Shown here: piece by piece, positions 2 through 17,546 of the stretch | Position numbering within the stretch: position 1 is the stretch's first letter | Layout of the letters: each line of letters opens with the position of its first letter | Assembly: GCA_016868395.1 (NCBI GenBank) | Contig: VGGW01000002.1 | Location: forward strand, 1-41,309 | DNA length: 41,309 nt | Direction of reading: 5' to 3' | From: Bacteroidota bacterium | Lineage (GTDB): Bacteria; Bacteroidota; Bacteroidia; Sphingobacteriales; Sphingobacteriaceae | Made by a program: the position numbers and the translations under genes | The notes under the pieces: generated by a model | What the model saw: only the letters and a program-made list of their open reading frames with translations | The model's database searches: none | Told to the model about the DNA's origin: nothing

Positions 2-940
2 AATTACCTGCATTTCAATTCTGCCGCTCTGGTGGATGCTGCTAAAGGGTATGAAAGCCACCTGGATGAAGGTGGAAAAATGATGATTACCCTTGCGGGT
101 GCGATGAGTACTGCCGAATTGGGTATTTCACTGGCAGAGATGATCCGTCAGGATAAAGTGTCCATTATTTCCTGCACTGGAGCGAATCTGGAGGAGGATA
201 TTATGAATTTGGTTGCGCATTCGCACTATAAGCGTGTGCCAAATTACCGCGATTTGAGTCCGCAGGATGAGTGGGATTTACTTGAAAATCATTATAACCG
301 GGTTACAGATACCTGCATACCCGAGGAAGAAGCTTTCAGAAGATTACAGAAGCATATCCATAAGCTCTGGAAGGATGCCGATAATGCAAGTGAACGTTAT
401 TTCCCACACGAGTATATGTACAAAATGCTTCTGAGTGGGGTGCTTAAACAGTACTATGAAATTGATGCAAAAAATTCATGGATGCTGGCAGCTGCGGAAA
501 AGAATTTACCAATTGTGGTTCCCGGTTGGGAGGATTCGACAATGGGTAATATTTTCGCTTCTTACGTAATGAAGAAAGAAATCAAAGCCTCAACTATGAA
601 AAGCGGAATTGAATATATGAGCTGGCTGGCTGATTGGTATATTGCCAATTCGGGGGGTAAGGGAATCGGATTTTTTCAAATAGGGGGCGGAATTGCCGGT
701 GATTTTCCTATCTGTGTTGTGCCAATGCTTTATCAGGATATGGAGATGGAAAATATTCCTTTCTGGAGCTATTTTTGTCAAATATCCGACTCCACTACAT
801 CTTATGGGTCATATTCAGGTGCAGTTCCTAATGAGAAGATCACTTGGGGAAAGTTGGACATTCATACACCTAAATTTATAGTTGAATCAGACGCTACCAT
901 TGTGGCACCACTCATTTTTGCTTGGGTTTTAAAGCAGTAG
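2..940 (+). CDS. Deoxyhypusine synthase-like protein, 5'-truncated by window edge
   Basis: The reading frame is open from base 2, and residues before the tracked GTG (32) read like family sequence (LHFNSAALVDAA), so the gene starts outside the window. It belongs to the deoxyhypusine synthase (DHS) superfamily, NAD-dependent enzymes that transfer an aminobutyl group from spermidine. Visible motifs are SCTGANLEEDIMN (equivalent of the NAD-binding TxGG.EED segment), GWEDSTMGN, and ITWGK near the C-terminus, which matches the catalytic-lysine segment of DHS. Bacteria lack eIF5A, so the true product may be homospermidine or another polyamine-linked compound; the substrate cannot be read from sequence. 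It ends 249 bp before the ACIII operon. Family confidence is high, reaction uncertain. Confidence 0.9.
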   Translation, partial: NYLHFNSAALVDAAKGYESHLDEGGKMMITLAGAMSTAELGISLAEMIRQDKVSIISCTGANLEEDIMNLVAHSHYKRVPNYRDLSPQDEWDLLENHYNRVTDTCIPEEEAFRRLQKHIHKLWKDADNASERYFPHEYMYKMLLSGVLKQYYEIDAKNSWMLAAAEKNLPIVVPGWEDSTMGNIFASYVMKKEIKASTMKSGIEYMSWLADWYIANSGGKGIGFFQIGGGIAGDFPICVVPMLYQDMEMENIPFWSYFCQISDSTTSYGSYSGAVPNEKITWGKLDIHTPKFIVESDATIVAPLIFAWVLKQ

Positions 941-1189: not shown

Positions 1190-2467
1190 ATGAGGAGCAT
1201 CTCATTGTTTTTTAGAAGTGTTACAAAATCATTGGTTTTGGTCTCATTGTTCTGTTCGATGGCTGTTTCTACAGTCAGTGCGCAGGATGCAGCAGCCGGA
1301 GCAGCGATTTTTAAGCAAAAGTGTACCGCTTGTCATGGTATTGAAAAAGCGGTCGTTGGTCCGGCATTGAAAGGTGTTGATACCAAGTATGACGAAGCAT
1401 GGCTGATTAAGTGGATTAGAAATGCTCCTGCCTTCATTGCTTCAGGCGATGCCCAAGCAGTAAAAGCATCTGAGTATTCACCGGCTATGATGTCGGCATT
1501 TCCGGAATTATCCGACGACGATATTAAGAATATCATAGCTTATGTGAAAGTTGGGGATGTTAAGCCTGCGGCAGATCCCAATGCAGCAGCCGGAGCAAAT
1601 GCAGCTGCTACCGCTCAGGGTGGAATAAGTAATTTCATGCTGTTTGGTCTGCTCGCTGTCATCATCATTGCCTTTCTGGTAATTCTGGTTCTAAATCGTG
1701 TAATCAGTACTTTGGAGCGTGTGATGCTTCAGAAAAAGGGTATTGAAGTTGAGGAGGAAGAAGCTGCTGGGGCCAAAGATCGCTTCGGAGGGCTCAGAAA
1801 GCTTTCCAAAAATAAGAAATTCATCCTCTTCATTGTATTGCTTTGTGTGATTTTCCTTGGTTCAGCAGGCTGGAAGGGAATGTGGGAAACGGGTGTGCAT
1901 ACGGGATATCAACCTGTTCAACCAATTAAATTTTCTCACCAATTACATGCAGGAGTAAATAAAATTGATTGTCAATATTGTCATTCAGGGGCTTATTCCT
2001 CAAAGCATGCATCCATTCCATCGCTTAATGTTTGTATGAACTGCCACAATTATGTTACGGCATCTGAGAAGTATGATGGAAAAACATCACCTGAAATCAT
2101 GAAGATTTATAATGCACTTGACTACAATGAAGATACCAAAGTTTATGGTAACAACACCAAACCGGTTGAGTGGATTAGAATCCATAATCTACCTGATTTA
2201 GCTTATTTCAATCATTCGCAACATGTTTCCGTTGCAGGCATAGAATGTCAAAAATGTCATGGTCCGATTCAAACCATGGAGGAGGTTTATCAATATTCTC
2301 CTTTAACCATGAAATGGTGTATTAATTGTCACAGAGAAACAGAAGTTAATCACAAGGACAATCCTTATTACGACAAGTTGATTGCTGCTCATGATAAGTT
2401 GAAAAAGGGTGAGAAAGTTACCGCAGCAGTTTTAGGCGGACTTGAATGTGCTAAGTGTCACTACTAA
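1190..2467 (+). CDS. actA: ACIII subunit ActA, multiheme cytochrome c with fused monoheme domain
   Basis: First gene of the alternative complex III operon; it carries electrons from the quinol-oxidising core towards the terminal oxidase on the periplasmic side. A signal peptide (about residues 1-31, ending VSAQ) precedes a class I cytochrome c domain with CTACH at 45-49 and candidate Met ligands at 100-101. Two membrane segments follow (about 148-170 and 210-226). The C-terminal part has five CxxCH motifs: CQYCH, CMNCH, CQKCH, CINCH and the terminal CAKCH. That gives six heme c sites, whereas the classical ActA is described as pentaheme. The ATG at 1190 is chosen because it gives a clean signal peptide. 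Heme attachment requires a separate cytochrome c maturation system, not present here. Confidence 0.93.
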   Translation: MRSISLFFRSVTKSLVLVSLFCSMAVSTVSAQDAAAGAAIFKQKCTACHGIEKAVVGPALKGVDTKYDEAWLIKWIRNAPAFIASGDAQAVKASEYSPAMMSAFPELSDDDIKNIIAYVKVGDVKPAADPNAAAGANAAATAQGGISNFMLFGLLAVIIIAFLVILVLNRVISTLERVMLQKKGIEVEEEEAAGAKDRFGGLRKLSKNKKFILFIVLLCVIFLGSAGWKGMWETGVHTGYQPVQPIKFSHQLHAGVNKIDCQYCHSGAYSSKHASIPSLNVCMNCHNYVTASEKYDGKTSPEIMKIYNALDYNEDTKVYGNNTKPVEWIRIHNLPDLAYFNHSQHVSVAGIECQKCHGPIQTMEEVYQYSPLTMKWCINCHRETEVNHKDNPYYDKLIAAHDKLKKGEKVTAAVLGGLECAKCHY

Positions 2468-2512
2468 TAGAATAATTTTAAGATAACATTACGTATACTT
2501 TATATAGCTTGA

Positions 2513-5500
2513 ATGGAAAGCAATAAAAAATACTGGAAAGGTTTAGAAGAACTGCAGAACACTAAGGATTTTGTTGAGAAAAACAAAAACGAGTTCGCTG
2601 AACCACTTCCTATGGAAGAAGTTCTGAATGAAGCCGGTTTAAATACCGTAACTCCACGTCGCGACTTTTTGAAGGCGCTGGGATTTGGTTTGGGGGCAGT
2701 AACTCTTGCTGCTTGTCAGACTACTCCCGTTCACAAGTCAATCCCTTACTTGGTTAAACCTGAAGAAATAGTACCGGGTATTCCTAATTACTATACTTCT
2801 ACGTTCAATGGTCACAGTGTTTTAGTTAAAACTCGTGAAGGCCGGCCGATAAAGATTGAGGGTAATCCAAATTGTATTCTGAGCAAAGGCAGTTTGGATG
2901 CTAAAGGACAAGCCTCAGTGCTTGATCTTTATGATGTATCCAATTTAAAAAATCCAGTTTTAAATGATTCAGAAGTTAGTTGGGCTAAAATTGATGAGTT
3001 TGTAAAGGCTGAACTTGCCAAAATTAAAACAAGCGGCAAAAAAATTCGGATAGTCTCCAATACAATTAACAGTCCGTCGACTAAAGCCGTAATTGCCGAC
3101 TTTACAGCGCAATATCCTTACACAAAGCACATTCAGGTTGATGCGGTGTCTTACACCGGTATAATCAAAGCAAATGAAAATAGTTTTGGAAAGGCAGTTC
3201 TTCCGAAATACCGTTTTGACAGAGCTGATTTGATTGTAAGTTTTGGTGCTGATTTTCTGGGTACCTGGATCTCTCCGGTTGAATTTAGTCGCCAATACAC
3301 ATCTAAAAGAAATAACACTGCCTTACAAGGTAAAAAAATGTCACGCCACATCCAGTTCGAGACTGGTATGAGTTTAACAGGTACCAATGCTGATGCCCGT
3401 CTTCCCTTGAAGCCGTCTGAGGAAGGTATTGCTCTTTTAAACTTGTATGCTGCGTTAGGTGGGGCTGTAACAGGGACAAAACCTTTAGCTAATAATCCTA
3501 ACGTAGAAAAGGCAATTGCACTGACCGCTAAGGAGTTAACTGCGGCTAAAGGAAGGGCATTGGTAATCAGCGGATCGAATGATGTATCCACTCAAATTCT
3601 TGTCAATGCGATTAATTCCGTTTTAGGAAGTTATGGCACAACGATTGATTTAGATAATCCATCTTATCAGTTTTCAGGAAATGATGCTGAATTTACGGAG
3701 TTTATCAATGAAATGAATCGTTCTGAAGTTGATGCAGTTTTCTTTTTGAATAGTAATCCTGCCTACGAGTTCAATGATACTAAAGCATTTACAGATGCCT
3801 TGAGTAAGGTTAAATTACGTGTTTCTTTTGCAGATCGTCAGGATGAAACCGCTTCATTATGTCAGGTTATTGCTCCAAATCATCATTACCTTGAATCATG
3901 GGGTGATTCCAATCCCGTTGAAGGATATTATACGATCATTCAGCCTACCATCAACCCGGTTAATAATTCTCGAAATGCTGAGCAAGGCTTGTTAATCTGG
4001 GCTGATGCTGCCGTTAGCGATTACTATCAATATATCCAGAATAACTGGGCTAAAACAGTTTTAGCTCAATCTGGTACCAGCTGGAAGCTTCTTCTGCAAA
4101 AGGGCTCGGTTACTCTTCCTGAAAGATCCGCCGCTACTTATACATTCTCTCGTGAACTTGATTCAGTGGTTCAGACAATTTTAGCTGAAAGTAATGCACT
4201 CGCTAAAGCTGGTGATAATGCTGTAGAACTTCATATTTATCAGAATGTTTCTGTTGGAGATGGGAAGTCGGCTAATAACCCATGGTTACAAGAGTTGCCT
4301 GATCCGGTTTCCAAGGTAACCTGGGACAACTATGCTGCAATCAATGCTAAGTTTGCCGAGAAATTAGGGATCGCTGAAAGGGATCTTGTTGAAATCAAGA
4401 CTGATAAGCATACCATTACTTTACCTGTCCTGATACAACCCGGACAGGCATACGGAACGGTTTCGGTTGCTTTAGGATATGGTAGAACTAAAGCAGGAAA
4501 AGCAGGTTCGGAAGTTGGTCAGAGTGCCTACCCATTCCTACGTTTGGTTAATGCAACTTTCCATACGGCATCTGCTGCAAGTTTGACCAAAACATCAGGA
4601 ACATATGAGCTGGCTCAAACTCAAACCCATCATTCCATTGAGGGTAGAAATATCGTTCGCGAGACTACCTTGAAAGACTACTTGAAAGATCCTAATTCAG
4701 GTACTGGTCACGCTCACGTAAATCACTATGATTTATGGAATGAATATGAGCAGCCCGGACATAGCTGGGTGATGGCCATCGATCTGAATGCCTGCACCGG
4801 TTGTGGAGCATGTATTGTGGCTTGTAATGCCGAAAATAATGTTCCTGTTGTTGGTCGTGACGAGGTTCGTCGTCGTCGTGAAATGCACTGGATTCGTATT
4901 GATCGGTATTACACCGTTAATGAAGATGGAAATAAAGTAACTGAAGAGAAGGAAATAGAGAAACTTGAAAATATTGACAAAGTTTCTGTTATACATCAGC
5001 CAATGATGTGTCAGCATTGTGACCATGCTCCTTGTGAGACTGTTTGTCCGGTGTTAGCAACTGTTCACTCTTCGGAAGGTTTAAACCAAATGGCTTACAA
5101 CCGTTGCATTGGAACACGCTATTGCGCAAACAACTGTCCATATAAAGTGCGTCGTTTTAACTGGTTTAACTATTGGAATGATTCACGTTTTGACAACTAT
5201 ATGAACAATGAGTTTACTCAACTTGTTCTTAACCCTGATGTTACTTCACGCTCAAGAGGGGTAATGGAAAAATGCTCCATGTGTGTTCAGCGTATTCAGG
5301 CAGGTAAACTCAAAGCTAAATTAGAGAAGCGTACTCTGAAAGATGGAGACGTTAAAGTTGCATGTCAGCAAACATGCCCTACTAATGCAATTATCTTTGG
5401 AGATGGAAATGATCCTGAATCTGAAGTATCAAAAGCATTAAAGAGCGAACGTACCTACTATGTACTGGAGGAACTGAACGTGAAGCCGGGTGTAGGATAT

Positions 5501-5533
5501 CAAACAAAAGTTAGAAATACTGTAGAGGTTTAA
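2513..5533 (+). CDS. actB: ACIII subunit ActB, molybdopterin-oxidoreductase-like iron-sulfur protein
   Basis: Large (1006 aa) periplasmic subunit of ACIII carrying the Fe-S wire. A twin-arginine motif RRDFLKALG (R49-R50) leads into a lipobox-like LAAC with Cys68, consistent with Tat export and lipid anchoring, as known for ACIII. Residues of about 80-740 are the molybdopterin oxidoreductase-like domain, which in this family is thought to hold no molybdenum cofactor. The C-terminal ferredoxin-like domain begins at CTGCGACIVAC (C761) and includes CQHCDHAPCETVCP, CIGTRYCANNCP and CSMC...CQQTCP, enough cysteines for four clusters. It lies 45 bp after actA and 20 bp before actC. Confidence 0.95.
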   Translation: MESNKKYWKGLEELQNTKDFVEKNKNEFAEPLPMEEVLNEAGLNTVTPRRDFLKALGFGLGAVTLAACQTTPVHKSIPYLVKPEEIVPGIPNYYTSTFNGHSVLVKTREGRPIKIEGNPNCILSKGSLDAKGQASVLDLYDVSNLKNPVLNDSEVSWAKIDEFVKAELAKIKTSGKKIRIVSNTINSPSTKAVIADFTAQYPYTKHIQVDAVSYTGIIKANENSFGKAVLPKYRFDRADLIVSFGADFLGTWISPVEFSRQYTSKRNNTALQGKKMSRHIQFETGMSLTGTNADARLPLKPSEEGIALLNLYAALGGAVTGTKPLANNPNVEKAIALTAKELTAAKGRALVISGSNDVSTQILVNAINSVLGSYGTTIDLDNPSYQFSGNDAEFTEFINEMNRSEVDAVFFLNSNPAYEFNDTKAFTDALSKVKLRVSFADRQDETASLCQVIAPNHHYLESWGDSNPVEGYYTIIQPTINPVNNSRNAEQGLLIWADAAVSDYYQYIQNNWAKTVLAQSGTSWKLLLQKGSVTLPERSAATYTFSRELDSVVQTILAESNALAKAGDNAVELHIYQNVSVGDGKSANNPWLQELPDPVSKVTWDNYAAINAKFAEKLGIAERDLVEIKTDKHTITLPVLIQPGQAYGTVSVALGYGRTKAGKAGSEVGQSAYPFLRLVNATFHTASAASLTKTSGTYELAQTQTHHSIEGRNIVRETTLKDYLKDPNSGTGHAHVNHYDLWNEYEQPGHSWVMAIDLNACTGCGACIVACNAENNVPVVGRDEVRRRREMHWIRIDRYYTVNEDGNKVTEEKEIEKLENIDKVSVIHQPMMCQHCDHAPCETVCPVLATVHSSEGLNQMAYNRCIGTRYCANNCPYKVRRFNWFNYWNDSRFDNYMNNEFTQLVLNPDVTSRSRGVMEKCSMCVQRIQAGKLKAKLEKRTLKDGDVKVACQQTCPTNAIIFGDGNDPESEVSKALKSERTYYVLEELNVKPGVGYQTKVRNTVEV

Positions 5534-5553
5534 TACAAGAAATAAAAAAGAAT

Positions 5554-7032
5554 ATGTCATCTCATCACGAGTCTATACTTAGAGAACCCTTAGTAACCGG
5601 TGAAAATATTACCTATTCAAAGGTCACCGAGGATATATTGGTTCCTGTAGAAAATAAGCCAAATAAAGCTTGGTGGATTGGTTTTATTGTATCCGCCCTT
5701 GGTGCCGGACTTTGGGTATTCTCTGTTAGCTGGACCTTCTGGTTTGGTATTGGCGAATGGGGCTTAAATAAAACAGTAGGCTGGGCCTGGGATATTACCG
5801 GTTTCGTTTGGTGGGTAGGTATTGGTCACGCCGGTACCTTGATCTCGGCAGTCTTACTCTTGTTCCGACAAAACTGGCGTAATTCAATTAACCGATCGGC
5901 AGAGGCAATGACTATTTTCGCGGTTATCTGTGCCGCTAGCTACATCATTTCCCACATGGGACGCCCCTGGTTATTCACCTGGGCATTACCACTGCCAAAT
6001 CAATTCGGATCATTATGGGTTAACTTTAACTCCCCATTAGTTTGGGACGTTTTTGCGATCTCAACTTATTTCTCGGTTTCATTAGTATTCTGGTACACAG
6101 GTTTACTTCCTGATATTGCAACGATTCGGGATCGTGCTGCGGGAGCTCGTCGCCGTATTTATTCCATTTTATCTTTTGGCTGGAATGGTTCAGTAAAGAC
6201 TTGGCAGCGTTTTGAATTGGTATCCCTGATATTAGCAGGTGTCTCTACTCCTTTGGTACTTTCAGTACACACGATTGTATCGATGGACTTTGCAACTTCC
6301 TTGGTTCCAGGATGGCATACCACCATCTTCCCTCCATATTTCGTGGCAGGCGCAATTTTCTCTGGTTTTGCAATGGTACAAACCTTATTACTCATTACTC
6401 GCAAGGTGATGAATTTTGAAAATTACATCACTATGTTTCACATTGAATCGATGAATAAAATTATCATTCTAACAGGGTCAATTGTGGGGGTAGCTTATCT
6501 AACCGAATTATTTATCGCCTGGTACTCTGGAGTTGAATACGAGCAGTATGCATTCCTGAATAGAGTGAGTGGTCCATATTGGTGGGCCTACTGGATTATG
6601 ATGACTTGTAACGTAATCTCTCCACAATTGTTCTGGTTCAAAAAGATTCGTACCAGCATAGCTTTGTCCTGGTTATTATCCATTGTGGTGAATATCGGTA
6701 TGTGGTTTGAGCGTTTTGTGATCATTGTCACCTCCTTGCACCGTGATTATCTTCCTTCAAGTTGGGTGATGTTTTACCCAAGTTGGGTTGATGTCGGGGT
6801 ATTTATCGGATCGATCGGGGTATTCTTTACCTTATTCCTTCTTTTCCTAAGGGTATTACCTGCTATTGCGATGGCGGAGGTTAAACTATTATTGAAGAGT
6901 TCAAGTGATCAAGCTAAGAAAAAATTGATCGCTGAGAAGGCCGTTAATCGTGTAGAGGCTGAGTATTATCTGGAGTCGCTCGAAAAATATGACAGTATTT
7001 CTCCAAATGTTGCTGAATTGCAAAAAGTTTAA
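5554..7032 (+). CDS. actC: ACIII subunit ActC, NrfD/PsrC-like quinol-binding membrane protein
   Basis: Polytopic protein of 492 aa in the NrfD/PsrC family. In ACIII this subunit contains the quinol oxidation site facing ActB. About ten hydrophobic helices can be traced, starting with AWWIGFIVSALGAG (around residue 40) and ending with VDVGVFIGSIGVFF before a charged cytoplasmic tail (from about 445). Segments such as FVWWVGIGHAGTLISAVLLL and SHMGRPWLF are typical of the family. It follows actB by 20 bp and precedes actD by 2 bp, so translational coupling is likely. Confidence 0.95.
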   Translation: MSSHHESILREPLVTGENITYSKVTEDILVPVENKPNKAWWIGFIVSALGAGLWVFSVSWTFWFGIGEWGLNKTVGWAWDITGFVWWVGIGHAGTLISAVLLLFRQNWRNSINRSAEAMTIFAVICAASYIISHMGRPWLFTWALPLPNQFGSLWVNFNSPLVWDVFAISTYFSVSLVFWYTGLLPDIATIRDRAAGARRRIYSILSFGWNGSVKTWQRFELVSLILAGVSTPLVLSVHTIVSMDFATSLVPGWHTTIFPPYFVAGAIFSGFAMVQTLLLITRKVMNFENYITMFHIESMNKIIILTGSIVGVAYLTELFIAWYSGVEYEQYAFLNRVSGPYWWAYWIMMTCNVISPQLFWFKKIRTSIALSWLLSIVVNIGMWFERFVIIVTSLHRDYLPSSWVMFYPSWVDVGVFIGSIGVFFTLFLLFLRVLPAIAMAEVKLLLKSSSDQAKKKLIAEKAVNRVEAEYYLESLEKYDSISPNVAELQKV

Positions 7033-7034
7033 AG

Positions 7035-7571
7035 ATGAGTAATATAAAATATATTTTAGGTCATTTTGAGGATCCGGATGATCTGATGCACGGGATAGAA
7101 AAATTACAGGAAAATAGCGTTAGTATTTACGATGTCTACACTCCTATGCCAATCCATGGTATTGAGGATAAATTAGGAATTAAACGATCAAGGTTAGGTA
7201 AAGTTGCTTTTGGTTTCGGTTTGACCGGTACCATCACTGCAATTTCTATGATCACCTATATGTTGGTTATTGACTGGCCAATGAATATTGGGGGTAAACC
7301 TCACTTTGCTTTTCCCGATTTTATTCCAATCATGTTTGAGTTGACCGTTTTGTTTGCGGCTTTTGGAATGGTTGGAACGTATTTTTTCGTCAATCACTTG
7401 GCTCCGGGTCGTGCGCCGAGAGTAATGGACTTGAGAGCAACCAATGATAGATTCGTGATCGCCATTGATGCAAGGACAAATACATCACATGATCAAATAG
7501 ATAGTATTTTAAAAGAAGCAGGTGCTGTTGAAATAAAGCACAACGAAAGGAAATATGTTAGTTATGAATAA
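7035..7571 (+). CDS. actD: ACIII subunit ActD (DUF3341)
   Basis: Small (178 aa) membrane subunit of ACIII of the DUF3341 family. The N-terminal soluble part (ILGHFEDPDDLMHGIEKL) is the characteristic DUF3341 start. Two transmembrane helices follow (about residues 55-80 and 93-118), then a soluble C-terminal domain with the family-like ...FVIAIDA segment. Its role in the complex is structural as far as known. The 3' end overlaps the start of actE. Confidence 0.93.
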   Translation: MSNIKYILGHFEDPDDLMHGIEKLQENSVSIYDVYTPMPIHGIEDKLGIKRSRLGKVAFGFGLTGTITAISMITYMLVIDWPMNIGGKPHFAFPDFIPIMFELTVLFAAFGMVGTYFFVNHLAPGRAPRVMDLRATNDRFVIAIDARTNTSHDQIDSILKEAGAVEIKHNERKYVSYE

Positions 7572-8148
7572 GCGCCTAATAATTTGTACCGCTTTTTTAA
7601 CTGTAGCCGCTGTTACGGTTATTTCTTCCTGTTCAAATAATAGAAGTACAGGGCTTGAGTTTGCCCGTAATATGTACGATCCGATTGGGTACAATCCGGA
7701 TCAGCCAAACAAGAACTTTAAGGACGGTAAAACTGCACAGGATCCGCCTGCAGGCACAATGCCTGTAGGATTCGACAAATATGATCTTTATCCAAATACG
7801 CTGGAGGGCTATCAGGCTGCAAGTGCGGAAATGACAAATCCACTTCCTGTAAATGTAGCTACACTCGAGCAGGGTAAAACATTGTATTTAAACATGTGCT
7901 CTCATTGTCATGGCCTTGAAGGAAAAGGCGATGGTTCTATCGTCAAAATGGGTGAATTTCCAGCTCCACCTTCCTATGCTACCGGAAACTCTTCAAGAGG
8001 GGGCAGCATGAAAGATCTTACAGATGGCAAAATTTATCATACCATCACCCATGGTGTGAACCTAATGGGTCCTCACAAATCTCAACTATCTCCTGAGCAA
8101 AGGTGGAAAGTTGTTATGTACGTTCATGAATTACAAAAATTACAATAG
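7555..8148 (+). CDS. actE: ACIII subunit ActE, monoheme cytochrome c lipoprotein
   Basis: Monoheme cytochrome c that passes electrons out of ACIII. A short lipoprotein signal ends VISSC, and one heme-binding motif CSHCH begins at residue 115, followed by GLEGKGDG typical of class I cytochromes c. The Met in GVNLMGPH is a plausible axial ligand. Two starts are possible: ATG 7555 (overlapping actD by 17 nt, with AAAGGA a few bases upstream) or ATG 7564. Both give a usable signal sequence; 7555 is kept because of the better ribosome-site spacing. Confidence 0.93.
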   Translation: MLVMNKRLIICTAFLTVAAVTVISSCSNNRSTGLEFARNMYDPIGYNPDQPNKNFKDGKTAQDPPAGTMPVGFDKYDLYPNTLEGYQAASAEMTNPLPVNVATLEQGKTLYLNMCSHCHGLEGKGDGSIVKMGEFPAPPSYATGNSSRGGSMKDLTDGKIYHTITHGVNLMGPHKSQLSPEQRWKVVMYVHELQKLQ

Positions 8149-8165
8149 TCAATTGCTAAAACCAG

Positions 8166-9386
8166 ATGGGAAATCATAATCATACTCATAATTTCACAGA
8201 ACAATTTGTATTTTCAGGAAAATTGAAAACCTGGACCTTACTAGCAATAGTGCTTGGAGTTCTTACTATAGCGTTTGGTTTATTGACAGGTCAGCAGGAG
8301 CGTACTTTCGCCAACTTGCTATTGATGGCATATTACTTTACTTGTGTATGCGCAACGGGCTTATTCTTTTTGGCAGTGCAATATGTAGCACAGGCAGGAT
8401 GGGCAACCGGTTTGTTAAGAATACCTCAGGCAATGTCGAGGGTTCTGCCTATTGCATCACTCGTTTTATTCGTTGTTTGTGCCGCAGGTTTATTAACGCA
8501 CAATTTATATCATCACTGGAATGGAGAGGGTCTGACAGATCCAAGCAGCCCTAATTTTGATAAGATAATTGCTGGTAAAGCAGGTTACCTGAATGTGCCT
8601 TTCTTTTTGACCAGATTGGCCATCTTCCTTGGAGCTTACAGCTTTTTTGCCTGGTTGTTTGCTAAGTATACAAAAGGACAAGAATTAGAAGGCGGACTTG
8701 TTTATCATGATAAAAACTTTAAATGGTCGGCTATATTTTTGATTGTTTTTGGTTTCACAACTCCAATATGGGCTTTTGATACCATCATGTCGCTGGAGGC
8801 TCATTGGTTCTCAACAATGTTCGGCTGGTACAATTTCGCCGCGATGTGGGTTAGTGGTCTTTGTGTAATCACACTAATCATTCTATTGATGAAGAAGGCA
8901 GGTTATCTAAGTTGGATTAATGAAAACCACCTTCATGACCTTGGTAAGTTTATTTTTGCGTTCTCCATCTTTTGGACATATGTATGGTTCTCGCAGTTTG
9001 TTTTGATCTATTATGCGAACATGCCTGAGGAAACAGTTTACTTTTACAAACGCTGGGAGCCAGAGTATCTTCCTTGGTTTTGGTTAAATATCATTATCAA
9101 TTTTGCTTCCCCTTTATTAATTCTCATGTCAAGAAAATCCAAGCGTCAAATGAATACGTTAATGTTTGTATGTATCCTACTTTTGTGTGGTCACTGGCTT
9201 GATTATTATATGATGATTATGCCGGGTACTGTTGAGTCTCACAGAAGTTTTGGCATTATCGAGATTGGGATAGCAATTGGGTTTATAGGGTTATTTACAT
9301 TTCTTACTCTAAATCAATTGAGTAAGAAATCGTTGGTTACAGAAAACCACCCTTTCTTGCAAGAAAGTATTAACCACCAGATTTAA
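8166..9386 (+). CDS. actF: ACIII subunit ActF, polytopic membrane protein
   Basis: Integral membrane subunit (406 aa) related to ActC and thought to stabilise the complex beside it. About ten hydrophobic helices are visible, beginning with TWTLLAIVLGVLTIAFGLL (around residue 23). The loop THNLYHHW and the segment FDTIMSLEAHWFSTMFGWY are family hallmarks. Position is last of the act genes, 17 bp after actE and 39 bp before coxB, which fits an ACIII-oxidase supercomplex encoded in one unit. Confidence 0.93.
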   Translation: MGNHNHTHNFTEQFVFSGKLKTWTLLAIVLGVLTIAFGLLTGQQERTFANLLLMAYYFTCVCATGLFFLAVQYVAQAGWATGLLRIPQAMSRVLPIASLVLFVVCAAGLLTHNLYHHWNGEGLTDPSSPNFDKIIAGKAGYLNVPFFLTRLAIFLGAYSFFAWLFAKYTKGQELEGGLVYHDKNFKWSAIFLIVFGFTTPIWAFDTIMSLEAHWFSTMFGWYNFAAMWVSGLCVITLIILLMKKAGYLSWINENHLHDLGKFIFAFSIFWTYVWFSQFVLIYYANMPEETVYFYKRWEPEYLPWFWLNIIINFASPLLILMSRKSKRQMNTLMFVCILLLCGHWLDYYMMIMPGTVESHRSFGIIEIGIAIGFIGLFTFLTLNQLSKKSLVTENHPFLQESINHQI

Positions 9387-9425
9387 ACACAGTTCTTAAT
9401 AGCTAAAAGAAAATTTACGAATAAA

Positions 9426-10754
9426 ATGAGGTTAAGAGAAATTTTTAATATCAGGACTGTAGCTGCAATACTAGTTATATGCACTCTTAATGTAACTAAC
9501 ACTGTAACTTTTGCTCGGGTTCAGGATTCTACAATTAGTTCAACAACTGCGGCAATTGATACTGCTGCTAAAGCTGGTTCCATTGACTTGGTTCCATCGT
9601 CCGCACCCTTAATCAGTACGGCAGTGGATACCGTAGCAAGATACGCGAACATGCAACCAATCGTCGAAACAAAGGATTACTCTGAGTCTTACAAAGTAGC
9701 TACTTATTATGTTTTAATGTTCTTGTTGCTCTGTGTTTTTATAGCCATCATTGGCAAAATTCTAAAGGTACATGAGATAAGTCGTGAGATGCAAGGTCTA
9801 AAAGCAGCTTTCAACGGGCGTAGAATTCAGGGAGTCTTTCTTGGCATCTTCCTGCTGTTTGGTCTGTACGGTGTGTACTGGTCCTATGCCGTTCAAGGGC
9901 CAATGAGTTTACATGAATCGGCATCTGAGCACGGCTTGGATATTGACTTTATGTTTAATACCACCCTAGTTATAACTACAATCGTATTCATCTTAACACA
10001 TATTGCTCTTTTCGGCTTCTCCTTTCAATACAGAGGATCAGAAAATAGAAAAGCTTATTTCTTTCCTCATAATAACTCCTTGGAAAGAATTTGGACTATT
10101 GTTCCGGCAATTGTTTTAACGGTGTTGGTGCTGCTAGGATTTTTCACCTGGAGAGGGATAACTAATGTTTCTGCTGAGGATCAGAAGAAAGCAATTAATA
10201 TTGAGGTAACAGGGGAGCAATTTAAGTGGTCTCTTCGCTATGCCGGTTTTGATAATCAAATTGGAAATCGTAACTACAAACTCACTACTCCAACTAATGG
10301 GCTCGGAATTGATTTTAAAGATCAGAAGAGCTGGGATGATAAACTGACGAGTGAGATAGTTATTCCTGTCAACAAAGCCGTACGCATTGTAATTAACTCT
10401 AAAGACGTATTGCATAGTTTTTATTTACCTGATTTTAGGGTTCAAATGAATGCCGTGCCGGGTATGCCAACTACATTTCAGTTTACTCCTCGTCTTACAA
10501 CAGCCCAAATGAGAGAAAAGAGAAATAACCCGGCATACGATTACGTTCTCCTTTGTGCTAAGATTTGTGGTGCCGGTCATTATAATATGCAAGCCAAGGT
10601 AACAGTGGTTTCGGAGGCTGAGTATGCAGCTTGGTTGGCCAAGCAGCCTTTGTACTACAATGATGACGTTAAAAGGGAACTTCAACTGGTTGAAAATTCC
10701 AAAACTGAAGAAATCAACAAAATGGCTTTAAATAAAAATAATACTATAAAATAA
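9426..10754 (+). CDS. coxB: Cytochrome c oxidase subunit II with extended N-terminus
   Basis: Holds the CuA centre that accepts electrons from cytochrome c. At 442 aa it is longer than minimal subunit II. An N-terminal signal-like stretch is followed by two hydrophobic segments (about 98-117 and 137-158) before the two canonical helices (about 178-198 and 221-243). The cupredoxin domain contains the first CuA histidine in DVLHSFYLPDF and the CAKICGAGHYNM loop supplying two Cys, His and Met. The usual CxExC Glu is Lys here; that residue binds by its backbone carbonyl, so copper binding should survive. No cytochrome c domain is fused at the C-terminus. It ends 2 bp before coxA. Confidence 0.94.
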   Translation: MRLREIFNIRTVAAILVICTLNVTNTVTFARVQDSTISSTTAAIDTAAKAGSIDLVPSSAPLISTAVDTVARYANMQPIVETKDYSESYKVATYYVLMFLLLCVFIAIIGKILKVHEISREMQGLKAAFNGRRIQGVFLGIFLLFGLYGVYWSYAVQGPMSLHESASEHGLDIDFMFNTTLVITTIVFILTHIALFGFSFQYRGSENRKAYFFPHNNSLERIWTIVPAIVLTVLVLLGFFTWRGITNVSAEDQKKAINIEVTGEQFKWSLRYAGFDNQIGNRNYKLTTPTNGLGIDFKDQKSWDDKLTSEIVIPVNKAVRIVINSKDVLHSFYLPDFRVQMNAVPGMPTTFQFTPRLTTAQMREKRNNPAYDYVLLCAKICGAGHYNMQAKVTVVSEAEYAAWLAKQPLYYNDDVKRELQLVENSKTEEINKMALNKNNTIK

Positions 10755-10756
10755 TT

Positions 10757-12664
10757 ATGGCAAGCACAGCAATACACGATGCAGTCGTATCTCACCAACA
10801 CGACGATCACGGTCACGATCACGGACATCATAAGGAAACATTTATTACTAAATATATCTTTAGTCAGGATCATAAAATGATCGCTAAACAATTCCTGATT
10901 ACAGGGATTGCCATGGCAGTTGTTGCTATGATTTTATCAATCCTCTTTAGATTACAATTGGCTTGGCCTGACGAGAGTTTTCCATTGTTGGAAACCTTTC
11001 TTGGCGAAAAATGGGCCGAAGGTGGTAGAATCAAACCCGATTTTTACCTTGCTATTGTAACAATACATGGTACCATGATGGTATTCTTCGTATTAACTGC
11101 AGGATTAAGCGGTACCTTCAGTAACTTGCTCATTCCCCTTCAATTAGGGGCCAGGGACATGGCCTCTCCATTCCTGAACATGATTTCCTACTGGTTGTTT
11201 TTTCTGTCATGCGTCATTATGATGGGTTCTTTCTTTGTTGAAAGCGGACCGGCAAGTTCAGGATGGACTGTTTATCCGCCTCTTTCGGCCCTGCCTAAAG
11301 CAATTAGCGGCTCAGGAACCGGTATGACCCTTTGGCTAATTAGTATGGTCTTGTTTGTTGCATCTGCTCTTATAGGTGCATTAAATTACATTTCAACCAT
11401 CCTAAATATGCGTACTAAAGGGATGGATATGTGGAAAATGCCTTTAACTATTTGGGCATTCTTCCTTACCGCAATTGTTGGGGTATTATCATTCCCGGTA
11501 TTAGTTTCGGCAGTGGTACTCCTAATCTTTGATCGTAGTTTCGGTACCAGTTTTTACCTTTCTGATATTGTTGTTGCTGGGCAAGTACTTCCCAACCAAG
11601 GCGGTAGCCCGGTCTTATGGCAACATTTGTTCTGGTTCCTTGGTCACCCGGAGGTTTACATTGTCATTATGCCGGCATTGGGTATTACATCAGAGGTAAT
11701 CGCAACGAATTCCAGGAAGCCAATTTTTGGTTATCATGCCATGGTTTATTCCCTTATTGGAATCACCGTATTGTCTTTCATTGTTTGGGGTCATCATATG
11801 TTTGTAACTGGCATGAACCCATTCCTTGGAGGGGTTTTCATGATTACTACCCTAATTATTGCAGTACCTTCAGCAGTAAAAACCTTTAATTACTTGGCAA
11901 CAATCTGGAGAGGAAATCTTCGCTTCACACCGGCAATGTTATTTGCAATCGGTTTGGTATCATTCTTTATCTCTGGTGGACTCACCGGGATATTTCTAGG
12001 AAATGCTGCCCTGGATATTAATCTTCACGATACCTATTTCGTAGTAGCTCACTTTCATCTGGTTATGGGTTGTGCAGCCATATTTGGTATGCTTTGCGGA
12101 GTTTATCACTGGTATCCTAAGCTGTTTGGCAGAATGATGGATGAGCGTTTAGGCTATCTTCACTTCTGGGCAACATTTATTGGGGCTTACCTTGTATTTT
12201 TCCCAATGCACTTTATGGGTATTGATGGTGTCCCACGCCGTTATTATGCTTTTACTGAGTTTGCATTTATGCAAGAATGGTTGACAGTGAATGTATTTAT
12301 AACATGGGCAGCAATTATTTCGGCAATTGCACAAATTGCTTTTTTGTGGAATTTCTTTTATTCCATCTATTATGGAAAAAAATCACCGCAGAATCCATGG
12401 GAATCAAATACCCTGGAATGGACTGCGCCGGTAGAACATTTACATGGAAACTGGCCTGGAGAGATCCCATCAGTACATCGCTGGCCTTATGATTACAGCA
12501 AACCCGGTCATCATACTGATTTTATTCCTCAAACTACTCCTTTTTCTGAAACGATGAGTTCTAATTTAATTCATGATTTTGAGGGAAACCCGGAAGCCGA
12601 GCACATACAACAACAGTGGGATAAGGAACATGCTCCAGAACGATATACTCCGGAGCAGGTTTAA
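10757..12664 (+). CDS. coxA: Cytochrome c oxidase subunit I (A1-type heme-copper oxidase)
   Basis: Catalytic subunit (635 aa) reducing oxygen to water and pumping protons. The His-rich N-terminus (HQHDDHGHDHGHH, residues 14-26) precedes twelve helices. Visible active-site elements are GHPEVY (CuB His, Tyr cross-link and the proton-channel Glu of A1 enzymes), WGHHMF (two CuB His), the K-channel lysine in SAVKTFNY, and HDTYFVVAHFH (heme ligands). The D-channel entry Asp lies in GARDMASPFLN. A hydrophilic tail of roughly 90 residues follows the last helix. It is cotranscribed with coxB and followed by a probable terminator. Confidence 0.96.
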   Translation: MASTAIHDAVVSHQHDDHGHDHGHHKETFITKYIFSQDHKMIAKQFLITGIAMAVVAMILSILFRLQLAWPDESFPLLETFLGEKWAEGGRIKPDFYLAIVTIHGTMMVFFVLTAGLSGTFSNLLIPLQLGARDMASPFLNMISYWLFFLSCVIMMGSFFVESGPASSGWTVYPPLSALPKAISGSGTGMTLWLISMVLFVASALIGALNYISTILNMRTKGMDMWKMPLTIWAFFLTAIVGVLSFPVLVSAVVLLIFDRSFGTSFYLSDIVVAGQVLPNQGGSPVLWQHLFWFLGHPEVYIVIMPALGITSEVIATNSRKPIFGYHAMVYSLIGITVLSFIVWGHHMFVTGMNPFLGGVFMITTLIIAVPSAVKTFNYLATIWRGNLRFTPAMLFAIGLVSFFISGGLTGIFLGNAALDINLHDTYFVVAHFHLVMGCAAIFGMLCGVYHWYPKLFGRMMDERLGYLHFWATFIGAYLVFFPMHFMGIDGVPRRYYAFTEFAFMQEWLTVNVFITWAAIISAIAQIAFLWNFFYSIYYGKKSPQNPWESNTLEWTAPVEHLHGNWPGEIPSVHRWPYDYSKPGHHTDFIPQTTPFSETMSSNLIHDFEGNPEAEHIQQQWDKEHAPERYTPEQV

Positions 12665-12849: not shown

Positions 12850-13767
12850 TTGATAGGAAAAAGTGAAACAGAAATTATAGTGAGTAATTTTATATCCGAC
12901 TTTAATAAATTAATTAAGTTAAGGCTAACGCTCACTGTAGTTTTTTCTGCTTCCATTTGCTTTCTTATGGGTAGTAAAGTTCAAGGTGATGTGAACTGGT
13001 TTAATTGGATTATATTGACGATAGGTGGGTTTTTAGTCACGGCTGCTGCCAATGGCTTTAATGAGATCATTGAAAAAGATTTGGATGGATTAATGAAAAG
13101 AACTATGGACAGACCAATTCCATCTGGCAAAATGACCACCGGACAGGCCTTAGGCCTTAGTTTAATCATGGGAATTTTGGGGACTTATCTTCTGGTGAGA
13201 CTTAATTTTCCGACCGGAGTGCTCTCTGTGTTTTCTATTTTTTTGTATGCATTTGTTTATACCCCAATGAAGCGGAAATCTCCAATAGCCGTATTTATCG
13301 GCGCATTCCCAGGGGCTTTGCCTCCTTTGATTGGTTATTTTGCGGCTTTTAATGAACCTAAAGTTTCCTGGATTCCCATTATTTTATTCCTGATCCAGTT
13401 CGTGTGGCAATTCCCGCATTTTTGGGCAATTGCCTGGGTTCTGGATGAAGACTATAAAAGGGCAGGATTTCGTTTATTACCCAGTACCAAACAAGACGGA
13501 ACAAGTGCGTTGCTTATACTTATTTCAACGATTATCCTTGTGCCGGTAAGCCTGATGCCCACGATATATTTGATGCCATCTGGCCAGGCTTTTGCCGGGA
13601 ATAGCTATGCCCTTATTGCATTGCTTGACGGACTGTTTTTTGTTTGGCAGGCCATTCAGCTCTATAAAAAAAGAGAGGCGTCTTTTGCTAAAAAGTTGAT
13701 GTACACCTCATTTATTTATCTTCCTTTGATGCAATTAACGCTCTTGTTTGACTTTGTATTAAAATAA
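12850..13767 (+). CDS. ctaB: Heme O synthase (protoheme IX farnesyltransferase)
   Basis: UbiA-family membrane enzyme that farnesylates heme b to heme O, the precursor of heme A for the aa3 oxidase. About eight or nine helices. The first Asp-rich motif is NGFNEIIEKDLDGLMKRTMDRPIPSG, and the second region has DEDYKRAGFRLLPS, both standard for CtaB/CyoE. An in-frame stop lies just upstream, so the start is the TTG at 12850 or the GTG at 12880; the latter removes ten unconserved residues and cannot be excluded. It opens the second cluster of oxidase genes, 11 bp before the first subunit III gene. Confidence 0.93.
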   Translation: MIGKSETEIIVSNFISDFNKLIKLRLTLTVVFSASICFLMGSKVQGDVNWFNWIILTIGGFLVTAAANGFNEIIEKDLDGLMKRTMDRPIPSGKMTTGQALGLSLIMGILGTYLLVRLNFPTGVLSVFSIFLYAFVYTPMKRKSPIAVFIGAFPGALPPLIGYFAAFNEPKVSWIPIILFLIQFVWQFPHFWAIAWVLDEDYKRAGFRLLPSTKQDGTSALLILISTIILVPVSLMPTIYLMPSGQAFAGNSYALIALLDGLFFVWQAIQLYKKREASFAKKLMYTSFIYLPLMQLTLLFDFVLK

Positions 13768-13777
13768 TTTAACTAAA

Positions 13778-14353
13778 ATGGAGAATTTACAAATTGAAGA
13801 TAGATTGAATTTAAAAGCCAAGAAGTTTTTGATGTGGCTTTTTATTATTGCTTCTTTTATGATGTTTGCTGCTTTAACCAGTGGTTTTATTGTTTATACC
13901 GAAGGAAATGCTGAACGTGGGATTAAAGTCTTACTACCTAAGGCATTTATGGTCAGCTCCGTCATTATAATTATAAGCAGTATTACCGCTCATATGGCCT
14001 ACCTTGCTGCCAGGGGCCTTCAATTTTCTAAGCAGAAGCTTTACATCACCTTAACAATTATTCTGGGAATTGCTTTTTTCTATAGTCAGTTTACGGCTTG
14101 GCAAGCCTTGTATGATTCAGGAGCTTATTTTGTAAACTACAATGCTTCACAATCCTTTATTTATGTGTTCAGTGGGGCGCATTTGTTACACGTAATTGTT
14201 GGAATCTTTTTTCTAATCTATGCCCTTATAGGTGCTGTTCGAACGATTCCCCAAGTACGGAATGTATTTAGAATGGAAGTCGCTTCCATTTTTTGGCATT
14301 TTCTTGATATCTTATGGATTTATCTATATGTTTTCTTACTTTTGAATCAATAA
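13778..14353 (+). CDS. Heme-copper oxidase subunit III, first paralogue
   Basis: Subunit III family membrane protein (191 aa) with five clear helices. Conserved signatures are the C-terminal HLLHVIVGIFFLIYA and SIFWHFLDILWIYLYVFLLL, the last typical of COX3. It lacks the first two helices of seven-helix COX3, as is usual for bacterial short forms. A second, longer subunit III gene follows after 23 bp; the arrangement is common in Bacteroidota. Which copy sits in the mature oxidase is not evident from sequence. Confidence 0.9.
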   Translation: MENLQIEDRLNLKAKKFLMWLFIIASFMMFAALTSGFIVYTEGNAERGIKVLLPKAFMVSSVIIIISSITAHMAYLAARGLQFSKQKLYITLTIILGIAFFYSQFTAWQALYDSGAYFVNYNASQSFIYVFSGAHLLHVIVGIFFLIYALIGAVRTIPQVRNVFRMEVASIFWHFLDILWIYLYVFLLLNQ

Positions 14354-14376: not shown

Positions 14377-15066
14377 ATGAATACTACTGTATCAAAATTA
14401 GATGAAATAAAATCTGACGCCTGGAGCGGCGGGAAATCACCTTTTTCTGTAGAATACGGAAAACTTATGATGTGGTTTTTCCTACTATCGGATGCATTTA
14501 CATTTTCTGCATTTCTAATCTATTATGGAGCCCAACGCTTCAGTAAAATTAGCTGGCCTGATCCTGATTTGGTTTTTCAATCTATACCTGGTTTAGCCGA
14601 TCATGGTTATCCTCTGGTTTTTGTCGGTATAATGACCTTTATTTTGATCATGAGTTCAGTAACCATGGTGCTTGCTGTAGAGGCAGGTCATCGTAACGCT
14701 AAAAAAGAGGTTGTATGGTGGATGATCGCCACAATTATAGGGGGTTTAATGTTTCTTGGTTGTCAGGCCTTGGAGTGGTCTCACTTGCATCATGAAGGTT
14801 ATTGGTGGGGAAGCTTTCCGACATCTTATACCGGTCAGGATACTGTTGGAGCACTTCAATTTGCAAACTTATTTTTTACCATTACAGGATTCCACGGTTT
14901 TCACGTGTTTACCGGTGTATTGATTAATATTATCATTCTGTTCATGGTACTTGGGAATGTTTTCCAAAAGAGCGGAAGCTACCTGATGGTTGAAAAAGTT
15001 GGGTTATACTGGCACTTCGTAGACCTTGTTTGGGTATTTGTATTTACTTTTTTCTATTTAGTTTAA
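14377..15066 (+). CDS. Heme-copper oxidase subunit III, second paralogue
   Basis: Another COX3-family protein (229 aa). It starts with a hydrophilic segment and has five helices, with GFHGFHVFTGVLINIIILF and the C-terminal GLYWHFVDLVWVFVFTFFYL matching the COX3 signature. An insertion between the second and third helices (EWSHLHHEGYWWGSF) distinguishes it from the upstream paralogue. It lies 21 bp before the subunit IV gene. Confidence 0.9.
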   Translation: MNTTVSKLDEIKSDAWSGGKSPFSVEYGKLMMWFFLLSDAFTFSAFLIYYGAQRFSKISWPDPDLVFQSIPGLADHGYPLVFVGIMTFILIMSSVTMVLAVEAGHRNAKKEVVWWMIATIIGGLMFLGCQALEWSHLHHEGYWWGSFPTSYTGQDTVGALQFANLFFTITGFHGFHVFTGVLINIIILFMVLGNVFQKSGSYLMVEKVGLYWHFVDLVWVFVFTFFYLV

Positions 15067-15087: not shown

Positions 15088-15429
15088 ATGTCAGCAGAAC
15101 ACACACACGAAGAACATGCCGGTGAGCATGAAGGAATGACCAAGAAGAAAATTTGGCAGGTTTTCTTTTATCTTTTAGGAATTACAGCCCTTGAATTCTT
15201 TATTGCTCTTTATTTAATTCCCAAAGGTATAGTAGGTCATGGAATTGGTAACTTCGCTTACATTGTCCTTACCCTGGTAAAAGCCTTTTATATAGTGGCT
15301 TATTTCATGCACCTGAAATTTGAAAAATTTGCACTTAAAACAGGTATTACTGTTTCATTGTTGTTTATTATTTATTTCATAGTGCTCATGCTCATTGAAG
15401 GAAACTACCAGTTCATTCAAATGAATTAA
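15088..15429 (+). CDS. Cytochrome c oxidase subunit IV family protein
   Basis: Small (113 aa) membrane protein with three helices (about residues 26-46, 53-72 and 83-105) and a His/Glu-rich N-terminus (AEHTHEEHAGEHEG). The length, the three-helix layout and the YFMHLKFEKFA loop fit the bacterial CyoD/CtaF-like subunit IV family, thought to stabilise the oxidase. Its stop codon shares a base with the SCO start (TAATG), so the two are translationally coupled. Confidence 0.88.
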   Translation: MSAEHTHEEHAGEHEGMTKKKIWQVFFYLLGITALEFFIALYLIPKGIVGHGIGNFAYIVLTLVKAFYIVAYFMHLKFEKFALKTGITVSLLFIIYFIVLMLIEGNYQFIQMN

Positions 15430-16136
15430 TGAGTTTACCCTCTTTTCCCGCTAAGAAAATCCTGATTCTGCTGGTATTGTTGGCAGTGCCCGGGTTTGTC
15501 TATTATCTTTTAAAGGAAAAAGGACAAAATCGATATCGCCCCCTCAACATCTATGGGGAAAAACAGGTTGCCAAAACATTTCGAACTAAAAGAGGTAAAC
15601 AGATCCCGGATACCATTTATCACGTTATTCGTGATTTTAGCCTTTTGAATCAGGATTCAAACATTGTCAAGTTTCCCGCGGATAGTAATCAGATTACGGT
15701 TGTCAACTTTTTTTATACACGATGCCCACTTTTATGTCGTAATATAAACAATGACTTAGCAAGAGTAGCAAAAATGTATAGTAAAAATCGTTTGTTGCGC
15801 TTTCTGTCAATCAGTGTTGACCCGGATTATGACAGCCCCTCAGTGCTGGCTCAATACAGTAAACCTTATGTCTCAGAAAATAAAAAGTGGGATTTTTTAA
15901 CTGGTGACAAAGAATTGATTTATGCTCTGGCAAAGTCTGATTTTATGGTGGATGCCATAGCGGATACTATCGGAAACAAAAATATTGTACATAGTACTAT
16001 GCTCATCCTCATCGACCCCCAAAAGCGAATAAGGGGATATTATGATTCAAGCTTAGGTCAGGAACAAGTGTCCTTGCTGGCTGATGAAATTAAACTATTA
16101 ATCACTGAAGAACTTAGAAGCATCAAGCTAAGATAA
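15429..16136 (+). CDS. SCO1/SenC family copper chaperone for CuA
   Basis: Membrane-anchored thioredoxin-fold protein that delivers copper to the CuA site of subunit II or reduces its cysteines. One N-terminal helix (about 9-26) anchors a periplasmic domain. The copper ligands are visible: CPLLC (C99, C103) and H188 in NIVHSTMLILIDP. Length (235 aa) is normal. It overlaps the subunit IV gene by one base and is followed after 34 bp by the DUF420 gene, fitting a role in oxidase assembly. Confidence 0.93.
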   Translation: MSLPSFPAKKILILLVLLAVPGFVYYLLKEKGQNRYRPLNIYGEKQVAKTFRTKRGKQIPDTIYHVIRDFSLLNQDSNIVKFPADSNQITVVNFFYTRCPLLCRNINNDLARVAKMYSKNRLLRFLSISVDPDYDSPSVLAQYSKPYVSENKKWDFLTGDKELIYALAKSDFMVDAIADTIGNKNIVHSTMLILIDPQKRIRGYYDSSLGQEQVSLLADEIKLLITEELRSIKLR

Positions 16137-16170: not shown

Positions 16171-16710
16171 ATGAATGATAAACAAATTTCGAGACTTATT
16201 ACAGCAGTTTCAATAGTGGTTTTAATTGTTGTAGTTATATTACAAAGTAAGATCCTAAATATTTTCCCTCAAAAGGAATTAATTCCTCTCTGGGTATTTT
16301 CGCTTCCTTTGTTCAATGCCATTCTTAATGGCACTTGTAGCGTGTTACTTATACTGTCCTTGTATTTTATCAAAAGGAAGGATATTAAAACCCATAAAAA
16401 TCTTAATATTCTTACCTTTATTTTATCTTCTCTTTTTCTGGTATCCTACATAATATTTCATGCAACCGGCATAAAGACCACTTATGGTGGCCAAGGTTTG
16501 ATTCGCAGTATCTACTATTTCATATTGATTACGCACATCATTCTGGCTGCAATTGTGTTGCCACTCGTGTTGTTTAGTTTTCAAAAAGGTTTACAAATGA
16601 AGGTTGAACAGCATAAAAAGTTAGTTCGCTGGACTTATCCCATCTGGCTTTATGTCACCATAACCGGGGTATTAGTATATGTGATGATTTCACCTTATTA
16701 TACTTTTTAA
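16171..16710 (+). CDS. DUF420 membrane protein, likely oxidase assembly factor
   Basis: Membrane protein of 179 aa with five predicted helices. The FHATGIKTTYGG segment and the helix with ITHIILAAIVLPLVL are typical of DUF420. Family members in Firmicutes (CtaM) are required for heme A oxidase activity, and the position directly after SCO supports a similar role here. That function is inferred from family and context, not from a catalytic motif. Confidence 0.85.
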   Translation: MNDKQISRLITAVSIVVLIVVVILQSKILNIFPQKELIPLWVFSLPLFNAILNGTCSVLLILSLYFIKRKDIKTHKNLNILTFILSSLFLVSYIIFHATGIKTTYGGQGLIRSIYYFILITHIILAAIVLPLVLFSFQKGLQMKVEQHKKLVRWTYPIWLYVTITGVLVYVMISPYYTF

Positions 16711-16812: not shown

Positions 16813-17088
16813 ATGAGAACGCTCAAATTAATACTTGTAGGTTTCGTTTTTATTTTTTCATCACTGATTTCAACAGAACTATCAGCACAATGTTCAATGT
16901 GTGCCTTAAATGCTGAAAATTCTGTGCAAAATGGTAATAATCAGGGTAAGGGGCTTAATAATGGCATTTTATACCTTTTAGCTGCACCCTACCTTGCAAT
17001 GGCCGGTGTTGGTTTTCTATGGTATAAAAAGTATAGACGCAAAAATGTCAATCTAAACATCAAGGATAGTAAGATTAATCTCAATTAG
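16813..17088 (+). CDS. Small exported CxxC membrane protein of the oxidase assembly cluster
   Basis: A 91-aa protein of unassigned function. An N-terminal signal or anchor (residues 1-25, ending LSAQ) is followed at once by CSMC, then a polar Asn-rich stretch, one membrane helix (about 51-70) and a basic tail (KKYRRKN). The topology would place the Cys-x-Met-Cys motif outside the inner membrane, with the tail in the cytoplasm. Gln before the first Cys argues against a lipobox. It lies 102 bp after DUF420 on the same strand. A copper- or thiol-related job in oxidase assembly is a guess from context. Confidence 0.75.
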   Translation: MRTLKLILVGFVFIFSSLISTELSAQCSMCALNAENSVQNGNNQGKGLNNGILYLLAAPYLAMAGVGFLWYKKYRRKNVNLNIKDSKINLN

Positions 17089-17138
17089 AATCCAAATGGA
17101 TTCGCTGCCTCTCCGTTCATACCTTGATTAATACTCTT

Positions 17139-17546
17139 ATGGCAAAGACCTCTAAATTCGTCGCGATTGCATTATCAAAATGTCCTAAATGCAGAAGAGG
17201 AAAGGTTTTCACAGGTACTTTGTATGGGCTTAATTTTCAGAAAACAAACGACCACTGTTCACATTGCGGAATGAAATTTGAAATTGAGCCCGGCTATTTT
17301 TATGGTGCGATGTATGTCAGTTATGCGTTTGTAGTAGCCGAAATGTTGAATGTGGGATTGATAACCTATATAATCACCGGGAATGAAACCTCCCCCTGGT
17401 TGTACATTTCAACAATTATTGGTTCGATTTTATTCCTAACTCCAATCAATTATCGATATTCCAGAATATTTTTATTGCACTTTCTGACTCCCAAAATTAA
17501 ATATTACCCTGAATACGATACGGATGATAAGCCCGGCAACATTTGA
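17139..17546 (+). CDS. DUF983 zinc-ribbon membrane protein
   Basis: Protein of 135 aa with an N-terminal zinc-ribbon-like pair of CxxC motifs (CPKCRRGKVFTG and CSHCGMKFE), then EPGYFYGAMYVSYAF, the core DUF983 signature, and two hydrophobic helices. Function is unknown. The tracked ORF begins at a TTG (17124); the ATG at 17139 (MAKTSKF) is a better start. The 3' end overlaps the next gene by 23 nt. Confidence 0.85.
   Translation: MAKTSKFVAIALSKCPKCRRGKVFTGTLYGLNFQKTNDHCSHCGMKFEIEPGYFYGAMYVSYAFVVAEMLNVGLITYIITGNETSPWLYISTIIGSILFLTPINYRYSRIFLLHFLTPKIKYYPEYDTDDKPGNI

Follow-up and report, generated by a model that had tools for sequence, protein, structure and literature searches.

The mini-protein gene and its oxidase cluster

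The window, by which we mean the whole 41,309-nucleotide stretch of DNA that was analyzed, contains a cluster of cytochrome c oxidase genes that includes a gene for a 91-residue protein, hereafter the mini-protein (table 1). Pfam matches place this gene after those for SCO1/SenC, which lies just upstream of DUF420, and DUF420 itself, bearing out the position given in the first-pass annotation, and also identify DUF983 and DUF2461 genes downstream. At most loci with enough flanking sequence the order is COX1–CtaB–COX3–COX3–COX4–SCO–DUF420–mini; in a minority of relatives the mini-protein gene is located elsewhere, with unrelated neighbors in the few that were inspected. The adjacent pair of COX3-family genes keeps its order across many relatives. 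The DUF983 gene, which encodes a zinc-ribbon-like start (CPKC...CSHC), follows the mini-protein gene in many, not all, relatives, and its coding end overlaps the start of the DUF2461 gene at 17524. No Rfam matches were found on the window, and promoter and terminator signals around the mini-protein gene did not rise above those of shuffled sequence.

Table 1. Features of the window that bear on the mini-protein gene
Feature	Position	Strand	Basis
Deoxyhypusine synthase family gene	32..940		PF01916, E 7e-39
Alternative complex III (ACIII)-type genes	1190..9386
COX2 with CuA motif CAKICGAGHYNM	9426..10754	+	Pfam; motif check
COX1, aa3-type subunit I	10757..12664	+	Named from sequence and use as query, not from Pfam
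CtaB-like UbiA prenyltransferase, heme O synthase by context	12850..13767	+	PF01040
COX3-family gene, first copy	13778..14353	+	PF00510
COX3-family gene, second copy	14377..15066	+	PF00510
Cytochrome c oxidase subunit IV (COX4_pro)	15088..15429	+	Pfam
SCO1/SenC	15429..16136	+	Pfam, 1e-18
DUF420 (PF04238, CtaM family), most constant neighbor of the mini-protein gene	16171..16710	+	Pfam, 5.4e-43
Mini-protein gene (91 aa, predicted exported CxxC)	16813..17088	+	Open reading frame and conservation
Predicted signal peptide, residues 1-25	16813..16887	+	Sequence, hydropathy, AQ conserved across relatives; putative SPase I site A25|Q26
C27-S-M-C30 motif	16891..16902	+	Both Cys invariant in 49 relatives and kept in the wider family
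Predicted membrane anchor, residues ~50-71	16960..17025	+	Hydropathy and model; invariant N49 just ahead, P59 within
Basic C-terminal tail	17026..17085	+	Sequence; cytoplasmic side expected by the positive-inside rule
DUF983 gene	17124..17546		Pfam

The product, MRTLKLILVGFVFIFSSLISTELSAQCSMCALNAENSVQNGNNQGKGLNNGILYLLAAPYLAMAGVGFLWYKKYRRKNVNLNIKDSKINLN, is laid out as a predicted signal peptide ending in AQ, the CSMC motif, a polar stretch of approximately 20 residues, a single membrane helix and a basic tail. Its N-terminus consists of a basic n-region and a hydrophobic h-region leading to LSA|QCSMC, and the sequence KKYRRK directly follows the second hydrophobic stretch. The open reading frame, the CSMC motif after a signal-like segment and the C-terminal hydrophobic anchor are thus as first described. 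An AlphaFold2 model (mean pLDDT 73) contains helices at residues 2–26 and 46–79 and places the CxxC motif in a low-confidence loop, with no fold around it. Given that the first cysteine is preceded by glutamine and not by a lipobox, cleavage by signal peptidase I at A25|Q26 is likely. This glutamine is present in 49/49 relatives, with an extra glycine between it and the cysteine in one or two, and on this basis we rejected a lipoprotein reading. The signal peptide and the basic tail together suggest that the cysteine pair faces the outer side of the membrane.

The gene is under selection. Eight pairwise comparisons gave dN/dS values of 0.03–0.11, and Q26, C27, C30, N49 and P59 are invariant in an alignment of 49 sequences. 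We rejected a chance open reading frame given dN/dS values of about 0.1, a match in 57/60 relatives (53/54 among good-quality genomes of its class) and the invariance of both cysteines, which are kept across the wider family; the proposal first made for this gene depended on that conservation and is not refuted on this count.

Co-occurrence and linkage with the aa3-type oxidase

A profile search of 198 genomes of the phylum identified the mini-protein in 51, and all 51 also encode DUF420 and an aa3-type COX1 homologous to that of the window. Within the class of the window, 47 of the 49 sampled genomes are carriers, and the other two lack COX1 and DUF420 as well. We then sampled 119 genomes from the order of one such genome, calling an aa3-type COX1 at E < 1e-100, which leaves out weak matches of 25–35% identity and admits one dubious COX1 (G337, 41% identity, with in-frame stops). 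Both genes occur together in 76 of these genomes and neither occurs in 38; the five discordant genomes comprise one with the mini-protein alone (68% complete) and four with COX1 alone. The association is strong by Fisher's test (p 2e-25), which ignores phylogeny. The four genomes with an aa3-type COX1 and no detected mini-protein copy count against the reading that we favor below; two of them (G272 and G282) are each at least 94% complete, and their missing copies are either assembly gaps or real losses. The COX1-like frame of G337 (C2:9466-10887) contains 12 in-frame TGA codons and possibly belongs to a contaminant in which TGA encodes an amino acid.

Homologs are therefore not regularly found in genomes lacking an aa3-type oxidase in either the phylum or the order sample, an outcome that does not refute the original proposal, and co-occurrence in both samples strongly supports the link to the oxidase that it had drawn. 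The gene product is a small membrane protein, maintained by selection and specific to the oxidase, with an invariant pair of cysteines, and its family is almost confined to the company of aa3-type oxidases in several bacterial phyla.

Linkage within the phylum sample separates DUF420 from COX1. DUF420 lies within 1 kb of the mini-protein gene in 37 of the 51 carriers, on the same strand in 36 of these 37; 19 of the 37 have COX1 at a distance of over 10 kb or on a different contig. The mini-protein gene is near COX1 only in 3/51 carriers and near neither gene in 11/51, the latter counting against the favored reading. The mini-protein gene is linked more to an assembly factor than to the catalytic subunit, and the placement of COX1 in those 19 genomes is easier to reconcile with an assembly factor than with a core subunit.

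Related proteins in other phyla

Profile searches of the more distant members of the phylum sample identified ACPACK-type proteins encoded beside DUF420 or inside cox clusters and CPxCYG-type proteins (the CPVCFG group) encoded beside COX2. Profile–profile comparison with hhalign aligned the AQCxMC group of the window (A1) with the ACPACK group (A4) and the latter with the CPVCFG group (A5), each at 97.3% (E 1.8e-11), and A1 with A5 at 91.8% (E 7e-7), scores that may owe part of their strength to signal-peptide and helix composition. Because similar composition can be enough to align short proteins that have both a signal peptide and a helix, we also relied on the shared gene context and the fixed CxxC-to-helix layout; profile similarity and context together support a single family comprising all three groups.

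A scan of public genomes for the CPxCYG group, using two patterns of which one holds the cysteine motif so that cysteine conservation is partly built in, returned 36 loci. The titles of their records name Acidobacteria, Neomarinimicrobiota, Ignavibacteriae and Chlorobi, along with a few further groups; some MAG labels may be wrong. In all 36 the mini-protein gene adjoins COX2 and is downstream of COX3. We also searched 149 genomes from the phylum of one acidobacterial genome by profile, with no input from gene context, and identified 28 carriers. All 20 loci fetched from this sample have COX1, COX3 and COX2 beside the mini-protein gene, which is located between COX3 and COX2, and all 20 proteins contain CxxC. 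The family extends to other phyla, a point missed in the first-pass annotation.

In the acidobacterial sample the presence of the mini-protein follows that of one COX1 subtype, not that of alternative complex III. A COX1 at least 64% identical to the acidobacterial reference is present in 26 genomes, 25 of which are carriers, and the exception has only a COX1 fragment at a contig edge. Three weak-scoring carriers fall outside this subtype, and almost all genomes with other COX1 types only are missing the mini-protein. At two Neomarinimicrobiota loci (L096 and L097, ~8400-11600), a second, different COX2–COX1–COX3–COX3 set is directly downstream of the oxidase genes that bear the mini-protein gene.

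Candidate roles in oxidase maturation

The first-pass annotation did not recognize this protein as described, and our searches strongly support that view: Pfam and NCBIfam contain no family for it (relatives gave sporadic weak matches of a compositional type), the family profile matched no PDB chain even at E 10, and no description was found among open-license PMC papers. Several characterized systems resemble it in part. Cox11/CtaG (PF04442), a copper chaperone for CuB, is likewise small and linked to the oxidase, with a single anchor, an outer soluble part and two conserved cysteines; however, Cox11 has an N-terminal anchor and a CxC motif (Cu2S4) in a large immunoglobulin-like domain, whereas the mini-protein has a bare CxxC at the mature N-terminus and a C-terminal anchor. 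The mini-protein does not match PF04442, which is also absent among the first 25 families listed for A1 and A5 members. SCO1/SenC (PF02630) is also an exported thiol protein of oxidase clusters but has a thioredoxin fold, in contrast to the mini-protein, which has no Pfam match to such a domain and is modeled as two helices only. CtaM (DUF420), present in all 51 carriers of the phylum sample, shares a neighborhood with the mini-protein; it is polytopic in the membrane, and genomic context marks it as a partner, not a homolog. CutF/DUF2946 is a small exported protein with a cysteine motif encoded beside a cuproenzyme; its CxxxC is in mid-protein, its end is rich in proline and its target is the translation of cutO, whereas in the A1 and A5 alignments CxxC stands at the N-terminus of the mature protein, a membrane helix is present and a C-terminal PP is absent. 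CcmH/CcmL (PF03918) combines an exported CxxC with a C-terminal membrane helix, but CcmH has a larger periplasmic three-helix domain with LRCxxC; PF03918 gave no match to the window protein and weak matches in 3/36 A5 members (best E 0.019). The mini-protein shares with oxidase copper/thiol maturation factors as a functional class both co-occurrence with the oxidase and conserved residues capable of metal binding or redox chemistry (both cysteines are invariant), with the outer-face location predicted. Based on a resemblance to known oxidase copper/thiol factors in placement and cysteine pair, and on the lack of the defining features examined for Cox11, SCO, CutF and CcmH, we regard these proteins as probable oxidase maturation factors that form an undescribed family.

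We posit, with confidence that is about evenly balanced, that the mini-protein is a dedicated maturation factor of the aa3-type cytochrome c oxidase. As first suggested for this gene, it may be a metal or thiol factor for CuA or CuB. Among 41 relatives, Cox11/CtaG was absent from all and Caa3_CtaG reached the cut-off in one, with positive controls behaving as expected in both searches. These two proteins are the CuB factors named in a review that assigns CtaM to CuB or to a late step (PMC9145763), given that hemes a and a3 are still made in Bacillus subtilis lacking CtaM. Because SCO is present for CuA and both known CuB factors were not seen in these relatives, elimination favors CuB as the putative target, an argument from absence; every complete COX2 that we checked adjoining the mini-protein gene contains the CuA motif, so that CuA may instead be served.

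In the mechanism that we infer, Sec export and removal of the signal peptide would yield a mature protein starting with (Q)CxMC on the outer side of the inner membrane, held there by a single helix and with its basic tail in the cytoplasm. Its invariant pair of thiols would coordinate one Cu(I) or serve as a dithiol, and copper or electrons would be passed to the nascent apo-oxidase near the membrane surface, most probably at CuB of subunit I. The mini-protein would act together with DUF420/CtaM at CuB, with SCO serving CuA. The stretch predicted to be exported between the CxxC motif and the helix counts against this reading, as it spans only about 20 residues without a known fold, and Cox11, SCO and PCuAC are all much larger.

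A broader version, which we offer tentatively and hold to be less probable than its failure, is that these proteins supply the CuB insertion factor otherwise missing in Bacteroidota and in one oxidase lineage of Acidobacteria, Neomarinimicrobiota and their relatives, in the form of a minimal membrane-tethered CxxC copper donor that would replace, with CtaM, Cox11 or Caa3_CtaG. For the loading of CuB in bacteria lacking Cox11 or Caa3_CtaG, the family provides a named candidate. The review is based on models in Bacillota, Actinomycetota and Proteobacteria and anticipates that further factors will be found (PMC9145763). A genetic system and oxidase assays exist for Flavobacterium johnsoniae (PMC8552683). 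Given that the gene is near-universal in Bacteroidia, tied to the oxidase there and in other phyla, and unannotated, a family model would fill a gap in annotation pipelines.

A possible though rather unlikely alternative is that the protein carries no copper and is a thiol–disulfide factor that keeps the CuA cysteines of COX2, or those of SCO, reduced before metallation, comparable to TlpA or CcmH in other pathways. CxxC is a classic redox motif, the gene has SCO nearby in the window and COX2 as its neighbor in other phyla, and the CuA cysteines are present in every complete COX2 checked; however, the protein lacks a thioredoxin fold, with about 20 exported residues and no modeled fold around the motif, and a conserved gene for a redox partner was not noticed, outside any systematic search. 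In addition, SCO is already present in most Bacteroidia clusters and can itself reduce the CuA cysteines in Thermus thermophilus (PMC6696091).

It is also possible, if unlikely, that the mini-protein is a small structural subunit comparable to CcoQ and other single-helix subunits, with its cysteines forming a structural disulfide. Single-helix subunits are common in heme-copper oxidases, and in Acidobacteria and Neomarinimicrobiota the gene is positioned among structural genes (COX1–COX3–mini–COX2). Pairing with DUF420 away from COX1, as in the 19 of 51 genomes described above, would nevertheless be unusual for a subunit, as would an invariant CxxC straight after the signal peptide, and no PDB chain matches the family.

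For the CPVCFG group only, whose gene is immediately upstream of COX2, a nascent-chain copper sensor controlling translation of that next gene is conceivable, as small exported proteins with cysteine motifs encoded directly upstream of a cuproenzyme gene can act in this way (CutF; PMC9973294), but we consider this highly improbable given that a conserved membrane helix takes the place of the C-terminal proline-rich stall motif and that in Bacteroidia the gene comes after DUF420 and is succeeded not by COX2 but by unrelated genes, DUF983 among them.

A role in alternative complex III alone, consistent with the ACIII-type genes upstream in the window and with the ACPACK-group gene that directly precedes actA-like genes, is disfavored and very doubtful because the distributions of ActC and the mini-protein part in the 149 acidobacterial genomes: ActC is present in 105, many of them non-carriers with 50–66% identity, four carriers (G402, G427, G438 and G457) have no ActC match, and G353 has the mini-protein with one COX1 and no detected copy with its other COX1, which is beside ActC. 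Just upstream of the complex III cluster in the window, this bacterial genome encodes a member of the deoxyhypusine synthase family.
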